From positions 1 to 52,210 of the IMG/VR virus record IMGVR_UViG_3300044515_000086: a stretch of DNA of 52,210 nucleotides. One strand, written 5' to 3'. The position numbers were made by a program, and so were the translations under genes. This document shows positions 42,486 to 52,210 of the stretch, in pieces; position 1 is the first letter of the stretch; every line of letters begins with the position of its first letter. Under the pieces are notes generated by a model. It made no database searches and was not told the origin of the DNA. It worked only from the letters and a program-made list of their open reading frames with translations. The DNA comes from a virus.

Positions 42486-43097
42486 ATGAACGCAGTATCG
42501 ATCGATATTCCGCCGGCCGTGGCCGCACTCCTCGAGGGCGGCTTCTATGCCGGCCGCATTCTCATTGCGGGCGTTCTCTATGCGCTGATCGTGGCACCCA
42601 AAGCTGAGGGTGAGCGCAAGCCGGGTGTGTGGTCCAAATCGGAGAAATCGATTGCCGGTGCCATGAGCTGGAATGACGGCCTGGCGAACACCGGCGCGAT
42701 GTCCGATGCGGGAAGCGCGCTCGCGAAGTGGGCGCAGGGCCTCACCATCGGCGGCTATTCGGATTGGTACCTGCCGGCGCTCGATGAGCTCGAGCTCTGC
42801 TATCGATATCTGAAACCGACCGCGGAGCCAAGCTATCTTTGGAGCCGATCGGGCATCAACGTGAGCGCGGTCCCACCGACGTATCCGTATGTCGCGGATT
42901 CCCCGGCGCAGACCGAACACGAGATCTTCCGCGCCGGCGGCGCGGAGGCCTTCGCCGATGAAATTTACTGGAGTTCGACGCAGCACGCCTCTGGCAGCAA
43001 CTACGCCTGGAGCCAGCATTTCAGCAACGGCTGCCAGAGCTACTGGTTCAAGGGCCATCACTTCAGGGCTCGCGTCGTCCGCAGATTAGCCATTTAA
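42486..43097 (+). CDS. DGR target protein 1 (C-type-lectin-like, carries VR1)
   Basis: 203 residues. After an N-terminal helical part with a short hydrophobic segment (GGFYAGRILIAGVLYALIVA) comes a DUF1566/CLec-like domain: WNDGLANTGAMSDAGSALAK, GGYSDWYLPALDELELCYR, then YWSSTQHASGSNYAW and the FRARVVRRL end. The last 35 residues are coded by VR1. The fold tolerates mutable surface residues and binds ligands. ATG follows AAAGGA and immediately abuts the parB stop. Its ligand is unknown. Confidence 0.88.
   Translation: MNAVSIDIPPAVAALLEGGFYAGRILIAGVLYALIVAPKAEGERKPGVWSKSEKSIAGAMSWNDGLANTGAMSDAGSALAKWAQGLTIGGYSDWYLPALDELELCYRYLKPTAEPSYLWSRSGINVSAVPPTYPYVADSPAQTEHEIFRAGGAEAFADEIYWSSTQHASGSNYAWSQHFSNGCQSYWFKGHHFRARVVRRLAI
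42978..43086 (+). repeat. DGR variable repeat 1 (VR1)
   Basis: 109 bp aligned to TR 44196-44304 without gaps. Thirteen positions differ and every one is an A in TR (to G, T or C). The rest, including the last 24 bp (TCAGGGCTCGCGTCG start), is identical. The 3' end diverges right after GCAGAT, marking the IMH boundary. Confidence 0.95.
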
Positions 43098-43136
43098 CCA
43101 TTCATCTATTTTTCCAAGGGCTTTAAAGGGGCATCC

Positions 43137-43640
43137 ATGAACGTGACCAAGAACGGCATCACCATCACCATCTCGGACGCTGAGGTCGTCAAGATGGCGC
43201 TCGAGCGCCTGAACGACGCACCGAGCCCCGTCGCCTTTGTCCACCTCGAATCCGACGTCCCTCGCATTGGCGAACACTGGTCGACTCAGGGCGGCATCTA
43301 TGCAGGCGTGGCGCGTGGCCGCGATGGTGCGCCGGACTATCACCTGATCGTAGGCCCTGAGTTCGACGGTCAAACGGACTGGGACGGCGCCGGCAAGTGG
43401 GCGGCCGGCGTGACAGTCCATGGGTTTTCTGACTTCGCGCTGCCGTTTCGCAAGGAGCAGGCGCTCAGCTTCGGGAACGTGCCCGAGCTATTTAAGGAGG
43501 AGTACTACTGGTCGTGCGAGCAGCGCGCCTCTAGCAGCAACTACGCCTGGGACCAGCATTTCAGCAACGGCTACCAGACCACCTGGTACAAGGACGATCA
43601 CATCAGGGCTCGCGTCGTCCGCAGATTAGTAATTCAGTAA
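43137..43640 (+). CDS. DGR target protein 2 (C-type-lectin-like, carries VR2)
   Basis: 167 residues. The start NVTKNGITITISDAEVVK is followed by a CLec-like domain: HWSTQGGIYAGVARGRDGA, VHGFSDFALPFRKEQAL, YYWSCEQRASSSNYAW and the RARVVRRL end. VR2 codes the C-terminal 35 or so residues. SD AAAGGGG at 8 bases. It shares the C-terminal fold with target 1 but the N-terminal halves differ, suggesting two ligand-binding partners or positions fed by the same TR. Confidence 0.88.
   Translation: MNVTKNGITITISDAEVVKMALERLNDAPSPVAFVHLESDVPRIGEHWSTQGGIYAGVARGRDGAPDYHLIVGPEFDGQTDWDGAGKWAAGVTVHGFSDFALPFRKEQALSFGNVPELFKEEYYWSCEQRASSSNYAWDQHFSNGYQTTWYKDDHIRARVVRRLVIQ
43520..43626 (+). repeat. DGR variable repeat 2 (VR2)
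   Basis: 107 bp aligned to TR 44198-44304. Nine positions differ and all are A in TR. Two residue positions differ from VR1, which shows independent mutagenesis of the copies. The last 26 bp are identical to TR and VR1. Confidence 0.95.
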
Positions 43641-43667
43641 TTCGATAATTTTCTTTCCCCAATCAGC

Positions 43668-44027
43668 ATGGCCATCCATACCAAGTTACCGATCTACAAA
43701 GTCGCCTATGACCTCCTGAGCGTCGCCGTGGACTATGTGCAGAACATGCCACGGGACTTCAAGGCGGCCATCGGCGGCCGAGTGCGCGATCTGTGCGTCG
43801 ATATCGTCCTGTCGATCTTCAAGGCCAATTGCGCGGCCGAGAAGACCCCGTACCTCGATCTGCTGCTCGAGCAGGTCGAGGAGCTGCAGCTGCTCCTGCG
43901 GCTTTGCCAGGACAAGCGATTCATCTCAAAGCCGCAGTACGCGGCCGCGGTGGAGTTGACGAACAGCGTCGGTCGGCAGGCGAACGGATGGAGGAAACAC
44001 TTTGCAGCAGCATCGCCCGTTACCTGA
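43668..44027 (+). CDS. avd: DGR accessory variability determinant, Avd-type four-helix protein
   Basis: 119 residues, all helical, with the pattern of bAvd-family four-helix bundles (IYKVAYDLLSVAVDYVQNMP, VRDLCVDIVLSIFKAN, LLLEQVEELQLLLRLCQDKR, ELTNSVGRQANGW). Avd forms a pentamer that binds RT and template RNA and is needed for mutagenic homing. It lies between the targets and the TR, as in Bordetella phage BPP-1. Confidence 0.88.
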   Translation: MAIHTKLPIYKVAYDLLSVAVDYVQNMPRDFKAAIGGRVRDLCVDIVLSIFKANCAAEKTPYLDLLLEQVEELQLLLRLCQDKRFISKPQYAAAVELTNSVGRQANGWRKHFAAASPVT

Positions 44028-45420
44028 TCGTCAAGGCGGTCCGGTCAGTGCGACGATTAATCTGGTCGCGCCGCTGGCATCCACAGCCACCGACAAGCGC
44101 ATCCGGGATATCGCCGGTCGTCCCACGATCCGGAGTCGATCCCGCGCAGTTTCCCCACTGAGAGTTCGGTGGGGCGACATCGATAGCGCGAACCTACGCA
44201 GCACGCCTCTAGCAGCAACAACGCCTGGAACCAGAATTTCAGCAACGGCAACCAGAACAACTGGAACAAGGACAATCACATCAGGGCTCGCGTCGTCCGC
44301 AGATAATCATGCAAGGGAAGGCCATGCCGATTTTTCCTTCTTGGAGCTCACGCAAGCCTATTTCGACTGCCGCGAGCACAAGCGCAACACCCGATCCGCC
44401 CTCGCCTTCGAGCAGAACCTAGAACACAATCTGCTCCGGTTGTGGGATGACCTGCAATCGGACGCCTATCGCCCAGGCCCATCGATCTGCTTCGTCATCA
44501 CACGCCCAAAGCCGCGGGAGGTGTGGGCCGCCAACTTCCGCGATCGCATCGTGCACCATCTGCTCTATAACCGGATCGCGCCACGCTTCCACCGAGCCTT
44601 CATCGCGGATTCCTGCGCCTGCATTCCTGGCCGCGGCACCCTCTACGCTGCGAAGCGTCTCGAGGCCAAGGTGCGCAGCATCACCCAGAATTGGCAGCGG
44701 CCTGCGTTCTACCTTAAATGCGACCTCGCGAACTTCTTCGTCAGCATCGACAAGCGCATCGTCCGGGATCTGCTCGCGCCCAAGGTTACTGAAGCCTGGT
44801 GGCTGCGCCTCGCCGAATCGATCCTGTTTCACGACCCGCGCTCGAAGGTCGAGCTGCGCGGACATCGAGAGCGCCTCGCGCTCGTGCCGGCCCACAAGAG
44901 CCTCTTCAATCAGGTCCCGGGGAAGGGGCTGCCGATCGGCAACCTCTCCTCGCAGTTCTTTGCGAACGTGCTGCTCGATTCCCTCGATCAGTACGTCAAA
45001 CAGAAGATAGGCGCGGCGTACTACATCCGCTACGTCGATGATTTCCTGCTGCTGCACGAATCGGCGCAATGGTTGAACGCCGTTCGGGCGGACATCGAGG
45101 CGCATCTTAAGACGCTTGGGCTGCGGCTGAATCCCACCAAGACGATCCTGCAGCCGATCGAACGTGGGATTGACTTCGTCGGCCAGGTGATCAAGCCGTG
45201 GCGGCGTACGCTGCGCCGGCGCACGTACCGCGACGCGCTTCACCGAGTCGCAACGATTACGAACGCCGATCTCTTTCAGACCGCCAACAGCTACTTCGGG
45301 CTGCTACGCCAGGCGACGCACAGCCGCCGCGATCGGATGCGACTCGCGAAGGTCATTGGCCGCCGCGGCCGCGCGGTGGATCTGGCGCTCACCAAAACCT
45401 ATCGCGGGAATTTTCTTTAG
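44002..45420 (+). CDS. DGR reverse transcriptase
   Basis: Retron/DGR-type RT core from about 44338 on: ELTQAYFDCREHKRNTRS, LRLWDDLQSDAYRP, FLKCDLANFFVSID (catalytic D), GLPIGNLSSQFFAN (DGR-type motif), YVDD at 45031-45042, and a thumb with LNPTKTI. It reverse-transcribes TR RNA with adenine errors. No ATG or GTG lies in frame upstream of the core; the TTG at 44002, seven bases after GGAGG, would run through the TR, and TTG 44341 is a second option. ATG at 44324 is one base out of frame. Confidence 0.9.
   Translation: MQQHRPLPDRQGGPVSATINLVAPLASTATDKRIRDIAGRPTIRSRSRAVSPLRVRWGDIDSANLRSTPLAATTPGTRISATATRTTGTRTITSGLASSADNHAREGHADFSFLELTQAYFDCREHKRNTRSALAFEQNLEHNLLRLWDDLQSDAYRPGPSICFVITRPKPREVWAANFRDRIVHHLLYNRIAPRFHRAFIADSCACIPGRGTLYAAKRLEAKVRSITQNWQRPAFYLKCDLANFFVSIDKRIVRDLLAPKVTEAWWLRLAESILFHDPRSKVELRGHRERLALVPAHKSLFNQVPGKGLPIGNLSSQFFANVLLDSLDQYVKQKIGAAYYIRYVDDFLLLHESAQWLNAVRADIEAHLKTLGLRLNPTKTILQPIERGIDFVGQVIKPWRRTLRRRTYRDALHRVATITNADLFQTANSYFGLLRQATHSRRDRMRLAKVIGRRGRAVDLALTKTYRGNFL
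44196..44304 (+). repeat. DGR template repeat (TR)
   Basis: Invariant source copy for VR1 and VR2. It carries AAC/AAT codons at the positions that vary, as expected of adenine-directed diversification. It ends at GCAGAT followed by AATC, where the VRs read TAG. It lies between avd and the RT core and inside the RT reading frame as extended to TTG 44002. Confidence 0.95.
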
Positions 45421-46619: not shown

Positions 46620-46975
46620 GTGTAATGACCGCATCGGACCATCGGCGCATCGAGGAACTCGCGGAGAAGCGGTTCAGCGTCGGCCGGATCGCTCAACTGA
46701 TCGGCCGCAACAAATCAACGGTGAATTGGTACATGTACTGCAACGGACTGCGCGCGCCGAAGAAGCTCGAAAAGCCGATCACGTATGTGCGCGGCGGCGT
46801 TCGCGTACATCGGTTTACCGACGAAGAGGACACCTTTATCGAGGCGTTGCGGATCCAGGGATGCACGCCAGAGGCAATCGCCGGTCATGCATCCGCCAGG
46901 TTCGGCACGGAACGTAAACACCATTCAATTCGCTGCCGCCTCAAGATGCTGGCCGCCAGGGAACTCGCGGAATGA
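46616..46975 (+). CDS. Helix-turn-helix DNA-binding protein, 119 aa
   Basis: The first half has an HTH of the Hin/homeodomain type: HRRIEELAEKRFSVGRIAQL then GRNKSTVNWYMYCNG. The second half has a Myb/SANT-like segment (FTDEEDTFIEALRIQG, HHSIRCRLKM). Two DNA-binding segments in tandem suggest a transcription factor or nuclease partner. The ATG at 46616 overlaps the previous stop; an in-frame longer form is rejected. Confidence 0.6.
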   Translation: MSVMTASDHRRIEELAEKRFSVGRIAQLIGRNKSTVNWYMYCNGLRAPKKLEKPITYVRGGVRVHRFTDEEDTFIEALRIQGCTPEAIAGHASARFGTERKHHSIRCRLKMLAARELAE

Positions 46976-48822
46976 GCAAGATGATCTTAGGTGCCTGGTC
47001 GGACGGCGGTGATGTAAAGCTCGACCTCGCGCGCTTGCTGCTTACTCGTATGTTGATCCAAGCGAATAGCGGCAACGGCAAGAGCTGGGCGCTGCGTAGG
47101 CTTTTCGAACGCGCCGCGGGCCTGGTGCAGCAGCTCATCGTGGATCCGGAAGGGGAATTCGCGAGCCTGCGCGAGAAGCATGATTTCGTGATCATCGCGG
47201 CGAACGGTGGCGATGCTGTCGCGCATCCTCGCACCGCCGCGTTGCTCGCAATCAGGCTCTTGGAGACCGAAGCTTCTGCCGTTCTTGATATCTCGGAGTT
47301 AAAGGCGGCCGACCGTCATACCTTCGTGCGGCTGCTGTTCGAGTCCTTGATCGATGCGCCTAAGAACCTGCGCCATCCGGTCCTGGTCGCCCTCGACGAG
47401 GCGCAAATGTTCGCTCCGGAGAAGGGCCAGGGCGAGAGCGAGGCGACTGATTCGGTGATCGACATGGCGACGCGCGGCCGCAAGCGAGGCCTGTGCCTGA
47501 TAGCGGCAACGCAGCGCATCAGCATGTTCCACAAGGGCGTCGCCGCGGAGCTGAAAAACCGCATGATCGGCGGGACGAGCCTGGACGTCGACGTGAAGCG
47601 TGCGGCGTTCGACTTAGGAATGCCGCCGAAGGATGCGCTGGTGGTCTTACGCGCGCTCGAGCCCGGGCACTTCTATGCGTTCGGTCCCGCATTGGCTCAG
47701 CTTGAGCCGCGGGAATTTGTTGTGGGTGATGTTGAGACCAGTCACCCGAAGGTTGGTCACCGGCAGGCGGCGCCGCCGAAGCCCACCGCGGCGATCGTCG
47801 CGCTGCTACCAAAACTCGCGGATCTCGCAAAGGAAGCCGAGGAGCGCGCGCGCAGCATCGATGACTTGAAGCGCGAGCTCGCCCAGGCCCGCCGCGAGCT
47901 AACCGTCGCCAAGAAACAGCAGCCCGCGCCCACGCCGGCGCCCGTCATCAAAGGAGATCCAGCGGCCGAGCGCCGGGCCGCGGCGCAGATTACAAAATTA
48001 ACCGCGGCCATCGAGGAACTCATGAAATTCATCGTGACGGTAACGGCCAAGGATTTCGAGGGCACCGCTGGCATCGACGTCGAAGCCATGCGCAAGGCGA
48101 TCGAGGCAGCTGTGGAACAGTCTCGTCGGCTCGTCGAGAAATCGATGGATGTGCGCAACGCGCAGTTGAAGTCTCTGCAGTCGGAAGCCTCGAAGATCGT
48201 CACACGCGTGCGCAAGCTGCTCGATTCTCAAGAGGTCAAGATCGAACTTGAGGTAAAGAAGAATGCGCCGTTCACAGTGGCGCCCACGCCAACGCGCGCG
48301 CCGGCGGCGCCGCGGCCGCCACCTAAATCAAATGGCGCGTCCGAATCTGGTCTGAGTACTCCGCGCCAGCTGATATTGGATAAGTTGGCATGGCTCGAAT
48401 CGATGGACCTGTATCCGGCTCCTAAGGAAACGCTGGCTGCGGTCTGCGGCGTAAGCCCCACGTCCGGCGGCTACTTCAATAATTTAGGTGCGCTGCGCTC
48501 ATCAGGCCACATCGATTATCCGCAGCCCGGCATGGTGGGATTTACTGATGCCGGTCGCGCGGCCTCCAATCCTCCGGATGGCGATGGTCGCGAAGTGCAC
48601 GAGCATTGGCTCGATATCGTCAGCACTCCACAGCGGGCGATCCTGGCCGCGCTCATCGCTAAGCACCCCAACGCGATGGGGAAGGATGAGCTCGCCGGCG
48701 AGATCGGCGTCTCATCGACGAGCGGCGGGTATTTCAACAATCTCGGACGACTGCGCACGCTTGGAGCTATCGACTATCCCTCGCCCGGTCAAGTAAATCT
48801 CACGCAGTACGTGATGCCGTGA
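46972..48822 (+). CDS. HerA-like ATPase with duplicated C-terminal domain
   Basis: 616 residues. N-terminal HerA/FtsK-type ATPase: Walker A ANSGNGKSW (about 31-39), Walker B VALDEAQMFAP, and ATQRISMF as sensor. A coiled-coil linker (about 285-430) leads to two copies of a winged-helix-like repeat (TSGGYFNNLGALRSSG and TSGGYFNNLGRLRTLG). HerA-type motors pump or unwind DNA with nucleases; phage versions serve packaging or anti-defence. ATG overlaps the HTH gene stop. Confidence 0.8.
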   Translation: MSKMILGAWSDGGDVKLDLARLLLTRMLIQANSGNGKSWALRRLFERAAGLVQQLIVDPEGEFASLREKHDFVIIAANGGDAVAHPRTAALLAIRLLETEASAVLDISELKAADRHTFVRLLFESLIDAPKNLRHPVLVALDEAQMFAPEKGQGESEATDSVIDMATRGRKRGLCLIAATQRISMFHKGVAAELKNRMIGGTSLDVDVKRAAFDLGMPPKDALVVLRALEPGHFYAFGPALAQLEPREFVVGDVETSHPKVGHRQAAPPKPTAAIVALLPKLADLAKEAEERARSIDDLKRELAQARRELTVAKKQQPAPTPAPVIKGDPAAERRAAAQITKLTAAIEELMKFIVTVTAKDFEGTAGIDVEAMRKAIEAAVEQSRRLVEKSMDVRNAQLKSLQSEASKIVTRVRKLLDSQEVKIELEVKKNAPFTVAPTPTRAPAAPRPPPKSNGASESGLSTPRQLILDKLAWLESMDLYPAPKETLAAVCGVSPTSGGYFNNLGALRSSGHIDYPQPGMVGFTDAGRAASNPPDGDGREVHEHWLDIVSTPQRAILAALIAKHPNAMGKDELAGEIGVSSTSGGYFNNLGRLRTLGAIDYPSPGQVNLTQYVMP

Positions 48823-50820: not shown

Positions 50821-51023
50821 AGTGGGTAACGATCAAAAAGGCTGCCGAATTATCGGGTTACACCGAGAAGGCAATCGAGGCGAAACGAGCCGACGGCACC
50901 TGGCTGGAGAACGTCGTATGGATAAAAGCCCCGGATGGCCGTATCTTGATCTCAACGGAGGGGATCGACGCATGGGCAGAGGGTCGGGCGTGCGCGCCGC
51001 AAGCAGAACCTCAATCGAGATAA
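50817..51023 (+). CDS. Excisionase-like DNA-binding protein, 68 aa
   Basis: Begins MKWVTIKKAAELSGYTEKAI, a winged-HTH of the Xis/MerR-like type (AELSGYTEKAIEAKR, then a wing GTWLENVVWIKAPDGR). GTG overlaps the previous stop and its end overlaps the integrase start by 52 bp. Its place directly before int is typical of xis, which steers integrase toward excision. Confidence 0.7.
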   Translation: MKWVTIKKAAELSGYTEKAIEAKRADGTWLENVVWIKAPDGRILISTEGIDAWAEGRACAPQAEPQSR

Positions 51024-52210
51024 CGTTCGAATATCGCAGCGTCCGCTGCCGCCAAAAGCTCAAGCTCCCACCCAACCATGCAAACCTCAAATATGCGCAA
51101 CGCTTCAAGGCGACGATCGAGCACGAGATCGAAACCGGCGTGTTCGACTACGCCAAGCATTTCCCGCGCAGCCCTCGCGCCAAGTTATTCGCCAAAGTGC
51201 CAGCGACAGTTGTCACCGTCGGAGAACTGCTCACCGAATGGCTGGCCTCAGTTCAACGCAAGCTCGAGCCTGAGACCTATGATCTCTACGCGCGCTACGT
51301 CCGCACGACCTGGCGTCCACGTTTCGGCCGGTCGTTCCTTGTCGACTTGACGGCGGCGCGCCTCGAGGAGTGGATCGGCGAGCAGACGACGACGCGCAAA
51401 CGTATCTTGAATCTGCTGACGCCGCTGCGCCAGGCGCTTAGGTTCGCCGTGCATCCGCAGAAGTATCTGACCGTCGATCCGATTGCGAAGATCAAGATCG
51501 AGAGGCCGGCCGGCATAAAGAAGTCCCCGATCGACCCGTTCTCCATCGCGGAGATCGACGCGATCCTCGCCGTGCTCGATCCGCCGAGAGCCAACATGGT
51601 GCAGTTTTGGGTGTGGACTGGGCTTCGCGTCGGCGAGCTCGTCGCGCTCACGTGGAATGACATCGACGCCGAGCGCAGCACGGCCAGCATCACGAAGTCA
51701 GCCCGCGGCAGCCGGCGCAAAGCGCCGAAGACCCAGGCCGGGTTGCGCGACGTCAAGCTGCTGCCGCCAGCATTAGAAGCCCTGGGGCGGCAGAAGGCGG
51801 TGACCCGACTCCTACACCGGGAGATCTTTTTAGACCCAGGCGCACCTGTCCGGTATCGCGACGCCGAGGGAAAATGGCACACGCCGACCGGCAACGTCGA
51901 GCGCAAGCCGGAGACCGTCAACCAGCCGTGGAAGAGCGACAAGGATATCCGCAAGTGGTGGCGGCAGGCATGCGTGGCGGCCGACGTGCGCTACCGGTTC
52001 CCGCGCCAGCTGCGGCACACCTATGCATCGTGGATGCTCAAGTTTCGCGAGGAGCCATTGTGGATCTCCAAGCAGATGGGCCACGCGAGCGTCTCGGAGA
52101 CGCTGGAGACCTATGCGAAGTACATTCCGAGCATGAGCCCGGACGCCGGAATGGGCGCGTACGCCGCAATTATGGCGTCGAAAAAGGACACGATTGGGAC
52201 GCGGTCGTGA
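50972..52210 (+). CDS. int: Tyrosine recombinase integrase
   Basis: 412 residues. An N-terminal arm-binding part (SRTSIEITFEYRSVRCRQKL) and core-binding helices are followed by the catalytic domain: GLRVGELVALTW (Arg), FPRQLRHTYASWML (His...Arg type box), MGHAS and the nucleophile Tyr in ETYAKYIP. All expected residues appear. The ATG at 50972 is preceded by GGAGG at about 9 bases. It integrates the phage at an att site that is not visible within the window. Confidence 0.92.
   Translation: MGRGSGVRAASRTSIEITFEYRSVRCRQKLKLPPNHANLKYAQRFKATIEHEIETGVFDYAKHFPRSPRAKLFAKVPATVVTVGELLTEWLASVQRKLEPETYDLYARYVRTTWRPRFGRSFLVDLTAARLEEWIGEQTTTRKRILNLLTPLRQALRFAVHPQKYLTVDPIAKIKIERPAGIKKSPIDPFSIAEIDAILAVLDPPRANMVQFWVWTGLRVGELVALTWNDIDAERSTASITKSARGSRRKAPKTQAGLRDVKLLPPALEALGRQKAVTRLLHREIFLDPGAPVRYRDAEGKWHTPTGNVERKPETVNQPWKSDKDIRKWWRQACVAADVRYRFPRQLRHTYASWMLKFREEPLWISKQMGHASVSETLETYAKYIPSMSPDAGMGAYAAIMASKKDTIGTRS

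Follow-up and report, generated by a model that had tools for sequence, protein, structure and literature searches.

A diversity-generating retroelement with two target genes, a 5' RT-15 RNA and a TR in frame with its reverse transcriptase

What is known about the mechanism of diversity-generating retroelements (DGRs) rests largely on the element of Bordetella phage BPP-1. In this phage one adjacent target lies beside tail genes, TR follows directly after avd, and a 144-nt spacer with the RNA family RF03022 lies 3' of TR and before brt, the reverse transcriptase (RT) gene. The inverted repeat after the VR is needed for homing (PMC3240598). DGRs with more than one target are an already known kind. 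In DiGReF they make up roughly one seventh (PMC3521204), and a figure of about 13% is quoted in PMC10743442.

For Burkholderia phage Magia (MT701587, PMC7883833) a DGR was described whose RT belongs to the same clade as the one analyzed here (67%). It shares the RT-15 RNA and tandem targets with our locus, its RT coding sequence is annotated from 5' of TR and includes TR, and it adjoins recombination genes and an integrase. Unlike our locus it has a third target, gene 57, far from the other two. Genes 47 and 57 are the targets given by the authors (PMC7883833); gene 46, not among these, carries a VR too in our comparison (L155 32336-32426). The Pseudomonas phages Haboob, phPA-G and Cruim01 and the Shewanella phage QDWS show the same clade and layout with two tandem targets. 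In QDWS and Cruim01 a further VR lies away from the cassette (L156 44975-45066 and L158 37890-37993), and in Haboob and phPA-G an ATG follows closely after TR.

Organization of the cassette

In our study we analyzed a viral stretch of 52,210 nucleotides, referred to as the window. It contains a complete DGR on the + strand at 42486-45420 in the order target 1, target 2, Avd, TR and RT, with all parts present as originally predicted. The features are as follows.

42486..43097, + strand: target gene 1, 203 aa, predicted Lcl_C / C-type-lectin (CLec) fold, VR1 at its 3' end
42978..43088, + strand: VR1, 14 of 38 A and 0 of 73 non-A positions changed relative to TR
43086..43110, + strand: period-8 NTT array 3' of VR1, ATT at 43092, 43100 and 43108
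43137..43640, + strand: target gene 2, 167 aa, predicted Lcl_C / CLec fold, VR2 at its 3' end
43520..43628, + strand: VR2, 10 of 37 A and 0 of 72 non-A positions changed relative to TR
43626..43650, + strand: period-8 NTT array 3' of VR2, ATT at 43632, 43640 and 43648
43668..44027, + strand: Avd, four-helix bundle accessory protein (Pfam bAvd, phrog_3206)
44011..44198, + strand: RT-15 structured RNA (Rfam RF03018) 5' of TR, full length, 151.7 bits, E 3e-36
44095..44097, + strand: AAG inside RT-15, at the position of an in-frame ATG in many relatives
44196..44306, + strand: TR, open and in frame with the RT
44341..45420, + strand: conserved part of the DGR reverse transcriptase, with a TTG at 44341 and an open frame that reaches upstream as far as 43960

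The RT carries the motifs IGNLSSQ and YVDD, in agreement with the DGR signature predicted for it, and profile searches matched it to phrog_1423 (1.8e-110) and to RVT_1 of Pfam (1e-15). Its best solved relative was the BPP-1 RT (8ub7, E 3.8e-32), whereas the top group II intron RT reached 3e-10, and it did not group with retron or group II intron RTs. Among the matches listed, the best IMG/VR relatives were 70-75% identical, and the RT clade comprises at least 530 confirmed RT-encoding stretches. The protein expected to be of the Avd type was recovered as bAvd (3.4e-13) and as the PHROG family 'Avd protein of DGR' (9.6e-32).

The locus had been described beforehand as having the BPP-1 order with a duplicated target. 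The gene order held, as in both elements target, avd, TR and RT lie on one strand, the differences between TR and VR are adenine-specific, and RT and Avd are related. The likeness did not extend to the side of the RNA, the spacer, the frame of TR, the hairpin or the location. Instead of one target beside tail genes the window has two near an integrase, RT-15 is inserted between avd and TR, and a spacer of the BPP-1 kind is lacking. Moreover, TR lies in the RT frame in most members of the clade, unlike in BPP-1, and a period-8 array takes the place of the hairpin after the VR.

We consider it highly probable that the locus is the DGR of a temperate phage in which one TR RNA, copied by RT and Avd with adenine-directed errors, supplies mutated cDNA to VR1 or VR2. 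Judging from the families of the parts, the TR RNA would be reverse transcribed by RT-Avd, and the mutated cDNA would take the place of either VR, each at the 3' end of a lectin-fold gene. One template would in this way vary two ligand-binding faces. A widespread phage lineage in which the RNA flanks TR on the opposite side, TR lies in the RT frame and another mark follows the VR would show that more than one design is possible for priming and target recognition.

RT-15, TR and the start of the RT

In the window Rfam placed RT-15 between avd and TR and gave no hit in the interval from TR to RT; RF03022 was absent from the window in the Rfam search but found in BPP-1. RF03018 was also located 5' of TR in 10 of 10 relatives tested. 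The internal closing stem of RT-15 was more stable in native strand pairs (-10.96) than in swapped ones (-9.08). The fold of the window suggested that TR might be closed into a loop, with the RT-15 3' strand paired to a block at the TR 3' end; we rejected this, since native pairs had no advantage over swapped ones (p 0.17). Likewise, we discarded the idea that the 5' part of the RT coding sequence conceals a spacer of the BPP-1 kind, as identity at four-fold sites there (0.47-0.48) was within that of the rest of the RT (0.37-0.52).

The conserved part of the RT starts about 35 nt 3' of TR in the window. The mechanical start of its open reading frame is the TTG at 44002, within avd, and conserved RT sequence extends from near 44341 to the stop at 45420. 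An open frame alone is no evidence, because the brt frame of BPP-1 is also open for 699 nt upstream; as proof of coding it was dropped. The phase between TR and RT was determined from the distance between the TR 3' end (CCGTCCGCAGA) and a fixed RT residue. This distance took 12 lengths, 24 to 63, which were multiples of 3 in 93 of 99 clusters. In each of the six out-of-phase clusters (46 or 52) an ATG in the new phase precedes the reference residue by 24 nt. The association of phase with an own ATG gave a Fisher p of 2e-7, which is no clean probability since the clusters are related by descent; on the RT tree the new phase corresponds to at least three changes. No ATG, GTG or TTG was present between TR and RT in 79 of the 99 clusters, and no RT-frame stop in any of them. 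In a Pseudomonas group a stop is located at -99, and the first ATG is the ATGATG at -90/-87 inside TR. Third codon positions were the most variable in the linker between TR and RT (0.47 vs 0.34 and 0.32), and within TR most of the variation fell on third positions when read in the VR frame. Codon periodicity 5' of TR was weak.

The simplest reading of these comparisons is that translation of the RT would begin in RT-15 or in TR, that is, upstream of or inside TR, and that TR would be a Thr/Ala/Ser-rich extension of the RT as well as the template. On balance we favor, with some reserve, that TR is part of the RT coding sequence and the RT messenger its own mutagenic template, with RT-15 on the 5' side probably substituting for the 3' spacer RNA of BPP-1. 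If true, RT synthesis and reverse transcription would be coupled, or opposed. The natural variants, with a start inside TR or after it, would serve as a test of translation and templating sharing one RNA. DGRs with a TR overlapping annotated RT open reading frames appear in the relevant DiGReF passage as structural group 3, an annotation class (PMC3521204). A test of frame maintenance for a TR within the RT is not given in this passage and was not found in the searchable literature.

RT start calls vary between the records of the clade, as would be expected if the true start were hidden in or before TR; the QDWS coding sequence (L002 3156-4187) starts 69 nt inside the conserved RT. In the linker (44307-44343 in the window) conservation also goes beyond coding. 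In the window and its relatives the His before Ala is always CAT (31/31), compared with CAC in 73% elsewhere in the RT, and third positions are AT-rich. This suggests a signal at the nucleotide level, perhaps with a role in priming.

The window was the sole cluster of the 99 without an in-frame ATG upstream of the RT. The position of the RT-15 ATG is AAG here, and the relative L050 retains the ATG. This may be explained by initiation at a TTG (44002 or 44341), by decay, or by an error in the sequence. That the window holds a decaying DGR, once active and silenced by this loss of the RT start, seems unlikely to us. The window stands alone among the clusters in this respect and the RT of L050 ends early, after about codon 98; nevertheless, apart from the start codon there is no damage to RT, Avd, TR, RT-15 or either VR frame, neither VR has a non-A mismatch, both TTG codons are available as starts, and a single base of a metagenome contig may be an error. 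In L050 (5001-6100) the RT match is 88% over 97 residues up to the cut and both VRs are kept; the sequence joined to the cut RT is unrelated and has a helicase-like reading.

The RT could also start 3' of TR, at the TTG at 44341 and at non-ATG codons in relatives, which would make the in-frame TR a by-product. Sister DGRs, with 40-55% RT identity and usually one VR, begin just past TR in 16 of 16 cases, and the TTG at 44341 is present. Nevertheless, we regard such a start as quite improbable, as it does not fit the 79 clusters devoid of ATG, GTG and TTG in this interval, would omit a conserved F-S-F segment and would leave the spacing in multiples of 3 without a reason. Initiation at an out-of-frame linker ATG (44324 in the window) followed by -1 frameshifting on ATTTTTC is very improbable. 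It would leave the phase of TR and RT free, 43 of 99 linkers have no ATG at all, TTTTT occurs in just 22 of 99, and the relatives listed have no Shine-Dalgarno sequence, set against an ATG in that frame in 45 of 99 linkers, the invariable CAT of the His-Ala pair and a partial Shine-Dalgarno sequence in the window. The frame-1 ATG as start of its own open reading frame was rejected too, since the lengths scattered from 6 to 250 codons and a Shine-Dalgarno sequence was missing in the relatives listed.

Variable repeats and their targets

VR1 and VR2 match TR at every non-A position (73/73 in 111 and 72/72 in 109 aligned positions, respectively), which bears out that one TR serves both targets; the two pairs together comprise 24 A changes and no non-A change. 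In the target frame the changes affect mainly Asn codons, e.g. N to Y, S, H, F, D or T. Such a bias towards Asn codons is common to other DGRs. A search of both strands of the whole window (52,210 nt) gave no third copy. Clade-wide, TR/VR pairs differed at 2831 of 6689 A positions compared with 35 of 14869 non-A positions.

As natural experiments we compared the VRs of locus pairs with the same RT and TR. In L103/L106 the RT is 100% identical, TR (0/107) and gene flank (0/150) are unchanged, and the near VR differs at 14 of 35 A and 0 of 72 non-A positions. Similar results were obtained for the phages phPA-G and Haboob (VR 12/34 A, 0/69 non-A; flank 0/150) and for L114/L141 (VR 17/33 A, 0/69 non-A). 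Change of the VR with a fixed TR, the behavior of a DGR, was thus found in the relatives. As the VRs of near-identical relatives differ at adenines only, the mechanism works in this lineage, and the lineage is active in nature. The activity of the window's own copy is uncertain, since its RT has no in-frame ATG.

The CLec-type fold assigned to both targets beforehand agrees with profile matches and predicted structures. Target 1 matched Lcl_C of Pfam (1e-12), and its AF2 model (pLDDT 91.9) had the C-terminal domain of Legionella Lcl as best PDB match (E 1.7e-4). Target 2 reached 3e-5 for Lcl_C, under the Pfam cut-off, and its model (pLDDT 91.6) matched the Lcl C-terminal domain (TMt 0.70) and many CLec domains. 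The models therefore support a C-type-lectin fold for both targets, probably nearest to that of Legionella Lcl.

One TR with two targets had been thought less common than one with a single target, which is wrong in this lineage. We counted VRs in 93 loci with sufficient sequence upstream and an RT identity of 60% or more, drawn from phage records, IMG/VR and GTDB genomes. At least two VRs were present in 89 of the 93 (two in 73, three in 15, four in 1 and one in 4). At the N-terminus the best match in other loci was the positional counterpart in 78 cases vs 14 for the near target and in 65 of 77 for the upstream target. As the N-termini mostly match the target at the same position in other loci, the pair is old, with some exchange, and not a fresh duplication.

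Downstream of the repeats, runs of at least 3 NTT triplets with a spacing of 8 (ATTYARYM-like) were found in 154 of 192 VR tails, 2 of 99 TR tails and none of 192 shuffles. A BPP-1-like GC-rich inverted repeat was not found after VR1 or VR2. From this comparison the array may mark the recipient from the donor. The AT-rich array also occurs in several sister-group loci. Its octamers often hold stop codons, and the period of 8 places these in successive frames.

Genomic setting

In Magia, QDWS, Haboob and Cruim01 the cassette is located in an early region with recombination genes and an integrase, away from the tail genes. An integrase match was present in 23 of 30 IMG/VR records, and the distance between RT and integrase was about 10 kb or less in most listed records, in a few only with the contig ends joined. 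In the window a RecE-like exonuclease, an AAA protein and a ParB-like protein are encoded upstream of the cassette and an integrase downstream (50822-52210); the virion genes are on the other strand. Both targets might still be tropism proteins of the tail, like that of BPP-1, with genes that lie apart from those of the tail, and phage fibre proteins with the same domain are among the fold matches. We consider this possible but doubtful, since the targets have no fibre domains and the cassette is found in the early recombination and integration region in 4 of 4 annotated phages, with an integrase near in most other records. This location argues against the targets as virion tropism proteins. 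Between cassette and integrase, 46972-48822 encodes an ATPase-like protein with a terminase match (phrog_2666, 6e-15) and two similar tandem C-terminal segments (SGGYFNNLG...IDYP.PG).
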